Source of the DNA: a bacterium
Lineage (GTDB): Bacteria > Vulcanimicrobiota > Vulcanimicrobiia > Vulcanimicrobiales > SCRA01
Direction of reading: 5' to 3'
DNA: 32,732 nucleotides
Assembly (NCBI GenBank): GCA_004297985.1
Contig: SCRA01000065.1
Coordinates: 1-32,732, forward strand
Shown here: in pieces, positions 7,013 through 9,048 of the stretch
Layout of the letters: each line of letters opens with the position of its first letter
Position numbering within the stretch: position 1 is the first letter of the stretch
Program-made: the position numbers and the translations under genes
Notes under the pieces: model-generated
Database searches by the model: none
What the model was told of the DNA's origin: nothing
Seen by the model: only the letters and a program-made list of their open reading frames with translations

Positions 7013-7061
7013 GGCGCGGGTGACCAACCGATCCCGCGTTCCTCGAAAGGACGAACGACGC

Positions 7062-8675
7062 ATGTTCGATTCGCTGTTTATCGGGGTGACTGGTCTGAAC
7101 GCCTATCAGGCGGACATGAACGTCATCTCGAACAACATCGCGAACGTCGGTACCACGGGCTTCAAGTCCCAAGACATGACGTTTCAGGACCTGCTGTACC
7201 AGAGCCTCCGCTATGCCTCGGCGCCGACGCAGACCAACGGCGGCGTAAACCCGCAGGACGTGGGCCTGGGCGTAAAGGTGGGGACGGTCGGCACCGACTT
7301 CGCGCAGGGCGGCCTGCAGACCACGGGCATCAACACGGATCTGGCCATCAACGGCAACGGGTTCTTCATCCTCGCCAATAGCGACGGCAGCGGGCGCCAA
7401 GTCTACACGCGTGACGGCGCCTTCACGCTCAGCTCCACCGGCACGGTGATCGATCCCAGCACGGGTCTAGCCGTCCAGGGATACAAGGCGAATGCCAATG
7501 GGCAGATCACGCAGACGGGAACGCCCTCCGCGATCAGCATCCCGCTGGGTCTGGCCATGCAGGCCCAACAGACCAACAATCTCTTCATGGGCGGCAATAG
7601 CGACGCCAGCCAATACGCCTCGACGGCTTCGGGGAGTAACTCCCAGGCGGCCGCGGCCGGCGCCGGCGTCAACACCGTGGGTGTTCCCCCACCGGCCGCG
7701 GCGGACAAGGTGCTCACCACCACCGTCTACGACTCGCTGGGCAACGCCCACCAACTGACGATCACCTTGACCCCGCTGCCGCCGCCGGCGATCAGCGCGG
7801 GCGGCGCCGCCTATGGCACCATCGACCCGGTGACGTCGAACGTCTCCGGTACCTCCACCTACATCGCTGGTGCCCTGCCCTCGACGGTCACCAATACCGT
7901 GTCGGGTTCGGGAGCCGTCAAGCCGGCTACCCGTTTCGCCTACACGGTGACGGCGGTCGACGGCACCTCGACCACGCCCGCGGCCGGGGAGCAGACTCCC
8001 GGCGGTTACGTCTACTTCGATGCCAACGGGCAGTTCGTCGGCGCCACTGACGCCGCCCCGACCAACGAGCAACTCACAGGCGTAGCAACGAATGCGGCGA
8101 CACTGAACGCCTCCGCGCCGATCAACGCCGGTAACGCGGTGGCCTTGACGGTCAACCTCTGGGGGCCGCCCAATAGCCCGCCGAGTCCCGGCGGGGTGAT
8201 CCCCAACAACGCGGCTGCCCCGACCACCGTCAGTCTGGACTGGAGCAAAGCCACGGGGCTCGCCTCGCCGTACTCGACGGCCGCCTTGACCCAGGACGGC
8301 TATCAGGCCGGCGTGCTCTCGAACATCTCCGTCAGCCAAGACGGAACCGTTCAGGGGCAGTTCACCAACGGCCAGGTGAAGACGGTGGCCCAAGTCGCCG
8401 TCGCCACCTTCGCCAACAACGGCGGCCTCGAACGCATCGGCAGCAACCAGTACGCCTCGACGGCGAACTCCGGCTTGCCGATGGTGGGGTCCGCCAACAC
8501 CGGCAACACCGGCGCGATCGTCTCCGGGGCGCTCGAGCAGTCCAACGTCTCGCTGGCCGATCAGTTCACGAAGATGATCGTGGCCCAGAACGCGTTCACG
8601 GCCAACAGCCGTACCATCGCGACCTCGGACCAGATGCAGCAGACCGTCGTGAACCTGCTCCCCGGCACCGGTTAA
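7062..8675 (+). CDS. flgE: Flagellar hook protein FlgE
   Basis: FlgE polymerises into the hook, the universal joint between rod and filament. The 537-residue product begins with the rod/hook N-terminal signature MFDSLFIGVTGLNAYQADM and ISNNIANVGTTGFK. It ends with the matching C-terminal helix (QSNVSLADQFTKMIVAQNAFTANSRTI). Between them are the hook D1/D2 regions, rich in Thr, Gly, Ala and Asn. It is longer than the enterobacterial protein (about 400 aa) because of an enlarged central domain. ATG 7062 is preferred over upstream GTG 7020 because AAAGGA lies 10 nt upstream and the N-terminus then matches the family. A strong terminator follows 20 bp after the stop, so flgE ends a transcription unit. 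Confidence 0.97.
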   Translation: MFDSLFIGVTGLNAYQADMNVISNNIANVGTTGFKSQDMTFQDLLYQSLRYASAPTQTNGGVNPQDVGLGVKVGTVGTDFAQGGLQTTGINTDLAINGNGFFILANSDGSGRQVYTRDGAFTLSSTGTVIDPSTGLAVQGYKANANGQITQTGTPSAISIPLGLAMQAQQTNNLFMGGNSDASQYASTASGSNSQAAAAGAGVNTVGVPPPAAADKVLTTTVYDSLGNAHQLTITLTPLPPPAISAGGAAYGTIDPVTSNVSGTSTYIAGALPSTVTNTVSGSGAVKPATRFAYTVTAVDGTSTTPAAGEQTPGGYVYFDANGQFVGATDAAPTNEQLTGVATNAATLNASAPINAGNAVALTVNLWGPPNSPPSPGGVIPNNAAAPTTVSLDWSKATGLASPYSTAALTQDGYQAGVLSNISVSQDGTVQGQFTNGQVKTVAQVAVATFANNGGLERIGSNQYASTANSGLPMVGSANTGNTGAIVSGALEQSNVSLADQFTKMIVAQNAFTANSRTIATSDQMQQTVVNLLPGTG

Positions 8676-8695
8676 TCCTCGTTCCCGGCTAGCGA

Positions 8696-8733
8696 CAGGG
8701 GCTCCGCCATGAGGGCGGGGCCCCTGCGTTTTT
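8696..8733 (+). terminator. Rho-independent terminator after flgE
   Basis: CAGGGGCTCCGCC pairs with GGGCGGGGCCCCTG around an ATGA loop, giving a long GC-rich stem (8696-8726). CG and five T residues follow (8729-8733). It lies 20 bp after the flgE stop and divides the flagellar cluster into two main units. Confidence 0.92.
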
Positions 8734-8789
8734 CCCGCTCAAGCAAGCGGGCTGGTGACTCCCAGTCACCGCACCGCCGGATAGCGGCG
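8734..8789 (+). repeat. Three consecutive small hairpins before flbD
   Basis: Directly after the terminator, CCCGCT/AGCGGG (8734-8739 and 8746-8751), GGTGACT/AGTCACC (8754-8760 and 8764-8770, loop CCC) and CGCCG/CGGCG (8775-8779 and 8785-8789) form three stems in a row. The first two are perfect. The block occupies most of the 139-bp gap before flbD. It could be an RNA leader for readthrough transcripts or a protein-binding DNA region. I recognise no known riboswitch in it. Confidence 0.5.
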
Positions 8790-8801
8790 CGCGGCGTTTC
8801 T

Positions 8802-8813
8802 GCCGATACAACA
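8802..8813 (+). promoter_or_regulatory. Possible sigma-28 -10 element at the flbD start
   Basis: GCCGATAC (8802-8809) is close to the sigma-28 -10 consensus GCCGATAA. The 11-mer CCGATACAACA (8803-8813) also occurs exactly at 18759-18769 in the cheY promoter candidate. The -35 region is poor (TAGCGGCG at 12-nt spacing). A start about 6 nt downstream would fall on the flbD ATG, giving a leaderless mRNA, consistent with the lack of a Shine-Dalgarno there. Confidence 0.35.
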
Positions 8814-8814
8814 G

Positions 8815-9048
8815 ATGATGATCTCACTGCACCGTCTCAACGGACAGTCCATCGTATTGAATGCCGATTTGATCGAGTATGTGGAGGCGACGCCGGACAC
8901 GGTGGTCACGCTGACCAGCGGAAATAAATTGCGCGTTCTCGAGACCCTCGACGAGGTTCAGCGGCGGGTCGTTGCATATAAACGGGCGATCCACGGGCCC
9001 GAGCCGTCCCAAGGCGGGGAGACTCCCGCGCCTGCCGCATCACGGTGA
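8815..9048 (+). CDS. flbD: Flagellar protein FlbD/SwrD family
   Basis: This is a small (77 aa) conserved protein of flagellar operons. The Bacillus member (YlzI/SwrD) increases flagellar power, probably by supporting stator function. The core MISLHRLNGQSIVLNADLIEYVEATPDTVVTLTSGNKLRVLET matches the family (I-x-L-x-R-L-N-G, N-x-D-L-I-E-x-V-E, P-D-T-V-I-x-L-x-x-G). The C-terminal 20 residues (PEPSQGGETPAPAASR) are a non-conserved tail. Adjacent ATGs at 8815 and 8818 are both possible. There is no ribosome site, which may mean a leaderless transcript. The gene lies just before motA, which fits a stator-related role. Confidence 0.92.
   Translation: MMISLHRLNGQSIVLNADLIEYVEATPDTVVTLTSGNKLRVLETLDEVQRRVVAYKRAIHGPEPSQGGETPAPAASR

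Follow-up and report, generated by a model that had tools for sequence, protein, structure and literature searches.

A terminator and a probable flagellar sigma-28-type promoter adjoining the flbD start codon, with a matching arrangement before flgB in the order

The gap between flgE and flbD in the window (the whole stretch of 32,732 nucleotides that was analysed) probably holds an intrinsic terminator followed by a promoter of the flagellar sigma-28 (FliA) type fused to the start codon of flbD, and not a leader RNA. This reading is made from sequence comparison. A -10-like octamer is conserved next to flbD, at nearly constant spacing, in four genomes of the genus, a FliA-type sigma factor gene is present, and the same layout is found in front of flgB. 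The wider flgB pattern in the order is better supported than the flbD site and is the more interesting part. The features of the gap are as follows.

8673–8675, + strand: stop codon TAA of flgE (ORF 7020–8675).
8696–8733, + strand: hairpin resembling an intrinsic terminator, closing the flgE unit (stem 8696–8726, loop ATGAG, then CGTTTTT at 8727–8733).
8734–8751, + strand: stem 1, found as drawn in the genome of the window; not conserved, 0/18 columns invariant, absent in G001.
8752–8770, + strand: stem 2 (pairs 8754–8770); not conserved, 0/19 columns invariant, absent in G001.
8775–8789, + strand: stem 3; 6/15 columns invariant, its loop overlapping the candidate -35.
8782–8785, + strand: candidate -35 (TAGC), separated from the octamer by 16 nt; its TA is common to the four genomes.
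8797–8801, + strand: TTTCT, just upstream of the -10; 5/5 columns invariant in the four genomes.
8802–8809, + strand: sigma-28-like -10 octamer GCCGATAC; 8/8 columns invariant in the four genomes.
8815–8816, + strand: predicted transcription start, placed as in E. coli aer, 6 bp after the octamer.
8818–9048, + strand: flbD (Pfam FlbD), 76 aa counted from the conserved Met.

The four genomes are that of the window (G000) and its congeners G001–G003. They make up family f1 in this comparison, while the remaining genomes seen from the order belong to a sister family, f2. G002 is 82% complete, and its alignment within the stem stretch of the gap is uncertain. flbD loci were read in 30 of the 44 genomes with a flbD match; three of the loci (L032–L034) have the same upstream sequence as those of G003, G002 and G001 and were counted once.

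flgE lies on one side of the gap, and on the other flbD is followed by motA, motB, fliM and fliY/N. The hairpin had been described as a textbook terminator closing the flgE unit, and this is borne out. The GC stem has 13 pairs; a terminator scan of the window gave two overlapping matches at the hairpin (0.4 expected), and the hairpin folds better than its shuffled versions in G000 (z -5.0) and in the three congeners (z -4.2, -3.5 and -4.9). In the alignment of the four genomes 25 of the 29 columns from 8697 to 8725 are invariant, 97.9% of cells are paired and one G-C pair is changed to A-U. Of the U-tract that follows, two of eight columns are invariant: GC hairpin and U-tract are both present in G000, and the T run is shorter in the three congeners. 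The hairpin is not a scattered common repeat, a possibility that the preliminary description had raised, as each of the four genomes has a single match at up to three mismatches. Inspection by eye suggests that GC-rich hairpins occupy the flgE–flbD gap of several sister-family loci too (L008–L030), with a T run in L014, L015 and L025 and without one in L008, L016 and L027.

Beyond the terminator the preliminary description saw three clean stems in a row, possibly an antitermination or leader RNA controlling readthrough into the motor and export genes. We now regard such control of readthrough from flgE into flbD as very improbable. The three neat stems do exist as drawn in G000, and the whole gap beats shuffled sequences in folding (z -3.94), but the clear part of this signal comes from the terminator. 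Taken alone, the three stems (8733–8800) give a weak z of -1.75, with 10 of 200 shuffles folding equally well, and the post-terminator stretch of the three congeners gives 0.00, +0.86 and -0.72. Stems 1 and 2 together contain no invariant column out of 37 among the four congeners, and by alignment G001 has neither. The proportion of paired cells is 92.9% for stem 1 (where 10 of the 24 cells are gapped), 47.6% for stem 2 and 77.8% for stem 3.

The structure made of the terminator and the three stems has 83.2% of its cells paired, against 40–53% when it is slid by one to three columns, a difference that includes the terminator and a structure drawn from G000. Shuffled alignments give 82.1%, with 195 of 500 as high as the real one, and no pair measure in the covariation test on the four genomes stands clear of the shuffles. 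As related genomes lack the stems or have them disrupted, they are not a conserved RNA: a conserved structure with covariation is not seen in the four genomes, and a leader or antitermination RNA was rejected on conservation, folding and pair counts. The suggestion that the hairpins act at the DNA level fails for the same lack of conservation. No RNA family had been recognised in the gap, and indeed the Rfam search of the window returned none at the gathering score. Between 8650 and 8900 there were three sub-threshold matches, the best being CrfA (8684–8788, minus strand, 27.6 bits for a gathering score of 38), probably due to the GC-rich hairpins.

Apart from the hairpin, what does not diverge in the gap among the four congeners is TTTCTGCCGATAC, adjoining the flbD start, with 13 of 13 columns invariant. 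Three of the five columns of AACAG, after the octamer, are invariant, as are 17 of 17 at the start of the flbD coding sequence. The octamer GCCGATAC matches the sigma-28-type -10 consensus GCCGATAA at seven of eight positions; as a -10 it is also that of flagellin in G001 and of flgF/G, and the -10s of the flagellar sites end, after GCCGAT, in -AC, -AT, -AG or -GG. It had been placed six nucleotides before the first flbD ATG; in G000 it in fact ends 5 nt before the ATG at 8815 and 8 nt before the ATG at 8818. The first of these codons is ATG, GTG, TTG and GTG across the four congeners; the second, an ATG in every one of them, lines up with the Met of the homologues and is thus the conserved start. 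From the end of the octamer to this Met there are 8, 8, 8 and 9 nt. The reported lack of a Shine-Dalgarno (SD) sequence holds throughout the genus: none of the four genomes has an SD-like word (GGAG, GAGG, AGGA or AAGG) before flbD, as expected of a leaderless message.

The -35 is poorer. Instead of TAAA at 15–16 nt, the four flbD sites have TAGC, TAGC, TAGA and TACC at 16 nt (two or three matches out of four), with the third base off consensus in every genome. According to the excerpts used of the work on the E. coli aer promoter (PMC2859248), point changes in its -35 lower activity about 4- to 10-fold, and sigma-28 transcription begins 6 bp past the octamer. By this rule the flbD transcript would start at 8815–8816, 2–3 nt before the ATG at 8818, and would be leaderless or nearly so. 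With a matrix made from other sites, flbD scores 12.5 in G000, G001 and G002 and 17.6 in G003, compared with 19.7–23.1 for the promoters used to train it; elsewhere in the window, three places equal or exceed the score of the flbD site. The G000 site has three mismatches in total to the sigma-28 consensus, above the limit of two used for WhiG sites in the consulted part of PMC8325347, so we class it as working like a sigma-28 promoter and not as a proven member. The conserved TTTCT, which is not seen at that place in the listed flgB sites, may compensate for the weak -35 or bind something else.

GCCGATA taken by itself is not significant: the window contains six, for 4.1 expected, so that its weight comes only from position and conservation. 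The pattern TGCCGATAC occurs 24 times in the window's own genome, compared with 30 for the reversed pattern. A general enrichment of GCCGATA next to ATG (128 in the four genomes summed, 86 for the reversed motif) was judged too weak for use, and the other exact TTTCTGCCGATA of G000 (C76:24898), which lies inside a 444-aa ORF on the opposite strand, was set aside.

A cognate sigma factor is encoded in the genus: FliA_WhiG (TIGR02479) scores over the cut-off in G000, G001 and G003, and no match over the cut-off was found in the incomplete G002. G000 also encodes FlgM. The more demanding pattern TAAA-N15/16-GCCGAT is found 22 times in the four genomes and seven times when reversed (6, 9, 1 and 6 sites in G000 to G003; 1, 4, 2 and 0 reversed). 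Such sites precede flagellin, flgF/G and flgB in G000, G001 and G003, and flgM in G000 and G001, the gene families having been checked on one locus each; the remaining sites are not followed by a convincing gene. Several observations weigh against the sigma-28 reading: the flbD -35 is off consensus, the matrix score is below those of the training promoters, GCCGATA is not clearly enriched near ATG genome-wide, flbD of the sister family lacks the site, and G002 has no FliA over the cut-off and more reversed TAAA sites (two) than true ones (one).

Just upstream of the sigma-28-like flagellin promoter lies csrA (PF02599; L146, about 1390–1488; G000:C23:9909-10224). The flagellin leader contains AAGGAGG and ACAGGATGT in G000, and ACAGGACGT in G001 and G003; next to csrA, the ACAGGATGT and ACAGGACGT elements are what we would presume of control by CsrA.

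In the sister family, the 26 flbD loci contain one one-mismatch octamer, at 12 nt, and 13 of them have an SD-like word before flbD. With the octamer in the four congeners and the sister family without it, the flbD site appears as a genus-level feature that has the layout of flgB.

For flgB the set comprised 47 genomes of the order (L240–L269 and L275–L291) and 26 loci from 24 outside genomes, the listed matches being used down to an E-value of 1.3e-17, with weaker or partial ones left out; in G000, flgB is on another contig than the window. In the genus of the window flgB is preceded by TAAAG, a spacer, [G/A]CCGATAG and CCCAA[A/G]CG, with eight bases from octamer to ATG and no SD. Among the matches listed, GCCGATA with at most one mismatch stands before an in-frame start in 40 of the 47 genomes of the order, ending at 8 nt (24 sites) or 9 nt (16 sites) when 7–10 nt were allowed. 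It is exact in 30 of the 47, and 45 have it with up to two mismatches, one of them (L279) doubtful as it lies before an inner Met. The two exceptions are L248, with ACCGATAG at 11 nt, and L262, whose start is uncertain. The 26 listed loci from other families of the phylum have no exact or one-mismatch motif and two with two mismatches. GGAG or GAGG precedes the flgB start in 9 of 47 listed matches in the order, compared with 21 of 26 in the other families (this later count used GGAG, GAGG and AGGAG); with the wider word set, that used for flbD, such a word precedes the start in 11 of the first 30 flgB loci.

At the flgB spacing neither the reversed motif nor any of three altered motifs occurs in the 47 listed matches. 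Anywhere within 24 nt, the first count gave 25 of 30 loci for the motif, 6 of 30 for the reversed motif and 0.85 (at most 5) for shuffles, and in these 30 loci one-mismatch octamers number 25 next to the start and 2, 1, 0, 1 and 0 in five upstream blocks of equal size. A -35 of the form T[ACT]A lies 15–16 nt before the octamer at 44 of 45 listed flgB sites (41 of the 44 at 16 nt), whereas shuffled sequences average 3.7 such sites and never exceed 12; none of the four flbD sites fits this form. Exact TAAA is present at 10 of the 45 listed sites, and most flgB promoters are closer to consensus than that of flbD. In genus g13 the bases after the flgB octamer (GGAGAAGACG and similar) could double as the SD of a longer message, which those of the window's own genus could not. 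Conservation in the genus and the corresponding flgB arrangement found across the order thus lend support to the proposal of a sigma-28-like promoter giving a leaderless flbD mRNA.

The differences from the flgB promoters, namely the conserved TTTCT and the non-consensus -35, would also suit a conserved block that is the site of another protein, either an activator or a different sigma factor, and not a sigma-28 promoter. This is quite improbable, as flbD and flgB agree in the octamer and in its distance from the start; flgB of G045 reads GCCGATAG AACAGATG ATG and flbD of G000 reads GCCGATAC AACAGATG ATG.

Compared with flagellar promoters of the sigma-28/FliA/WhiG/SigD class (TAAA and GCCGATAA; excerpts of PMC2859248 and PMC8325347), the flbD site is alike in its -10, with one mismatch, and in its spacing of 16, and like known sigma-28 systems the host genome has a FliA-type sigma factor and FlgM. 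It is unlike them in its poor -35 and in having the start codon at the expected transcription start. In Rubrobacter, WhiG sites have been described along with their mapped starts, as the consulted part of PMC8325347 indicates. The portion seen of PMC3874003 describes PD3, a weak sigma-D promoter before flgB in the fla/che operon of B. subtilis, which forms a feedback loop, backs up a sigma-A promoter and is lost when the stretch from -302 to -184, counted from the flgB start, is deleted. PD3 resembles the present case in that a promoter of the sigma-28 family precedes early flagellar genes (flgB), and differs from it in being far upstream, whereas here the -10 ends 8–9 nt from the start.

The weakness reported for PD3 in those extracts (PMC3874003) can be set beside the weak -35 of flbD, and beside a hairpin that stays in the three congeners while its T run shortens. 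Together they would fit an unlikely alternative, in which flbD is expressed mainly by readthrough from the upstream operon, the hairpin being leaky or a 3' stabiliser that does no more than reduce the level, and GCCGATAC a weak secondary sigma-28 promoter. But flbD has no SD in the genus, so that a readthrough message would need another route of translation, and TTTCTGCCGATAC is strictly conserved at near-fixed spacing.

For a start next to the codon there are precedents. In some phyla leaderless mRNAs are common (PMC5397173, in part), and atsA of Actinoplanes missouriensis is leaderless, with a start 1 nt before the codon, in the extracts seen of PMC11064477. The flbD case resembles leaderless bacterial mRNAs in that the transcript is expected to begin at or next to the start codon with no SD, and it is unlike them in that its predicted promoter is of the flagellar class. 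Leaderless messages are known mostly from housekeeping-type promoters.

GCCGA(T) is also found upstream of flbD in actinobacteria, in 15 aligned leaders picked by eye for the motif (L070, L077, L081, L083, L085, L086, L091, L096, L098–L102, L105 and L106; last 80 nt before flbD). There, unlike here, it begins about 61–68 nt upstream, with a hairpin carrying an AYGGAY loop and usually CAAGGAYGG before the start (12 of the 15). The hairpin stem covaries: it has 92.2% of cells paired and 18 cells changed on both sides (6.3 in shuffles), and three pairs show a change on both sides (2.8 in shuffles). A hairpin with such a loop occurs in 16 of 80 loci, compared with 1.2 after shuffling, five of the 16 being of another kind. 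Rfam had no match in the seven of these loci searched. We take this leader to look like a double CsrA-type site.

The preferred reading remains that of a terminator and a promoter fused to flbD. The hairpin at 8696–8733 would end the upstream flgE transcript, or shield its 3' end, and a FliA-type promoter with GCCGATAC (8802–8809) as its -10 would restart transcription at about 8815–8816. flbD and the motor and export genes would then be translated from an mRNA with about 2–3 nt before the ATG at 8818, or with no leader at all if the ATG at 8815 is the start. The stems in between would be dispensable filler of a GC-rich gap. We infer from the sequence that FliA uses the site, that transcription begins at this point and that the flbD message is translated leaderless; the genes behind flbD are presumably co-transcribed with it, and the upstream operon would run from flgB to flgE.

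Sigma-28-family promoters at flgB are already known; the form fused to the start codon was not met in a literature search for FliA, sigma-28 or flgB with leaderless, whose titles and abstract beginnings gave transcription start maps of other bacteria and nothing on this arrangement. The cultured Vulcanimicrobium alpinus shows no flagella and has no flagellin gene in the section of PMC9758169 consulted.

In the best-known flagellar systems other promoters serve the basal body, which is built first, and sigma-28 drives the late genes. For the order (probably of Candidatus Eremiobacterota) we put forward, as a tentative possibility, that the late flagellar sigma factor drives the hook-basal-body operon beginning with flgB and, in a single genus, the flbD-motor-export operon as well, from promoters joined directly to their start codons. 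If this is true, the early messages would have no 5' UTR and would therefore escape control by CsrA or leader RNAs. Flagellin, with its sigma-28 promoter and a long leader carrying an SD and the CsrA-like ACAGGATGT, near csrA, would be controllable, and the usual early-to-late order would be set after transcription and not by a sigma cascade. An order-wide sigma-28-like promoter fused to the start of the basal-body operon would be a different flagellar wiring, and such an order would offer a natural experiment on the function of a 5' UTR.
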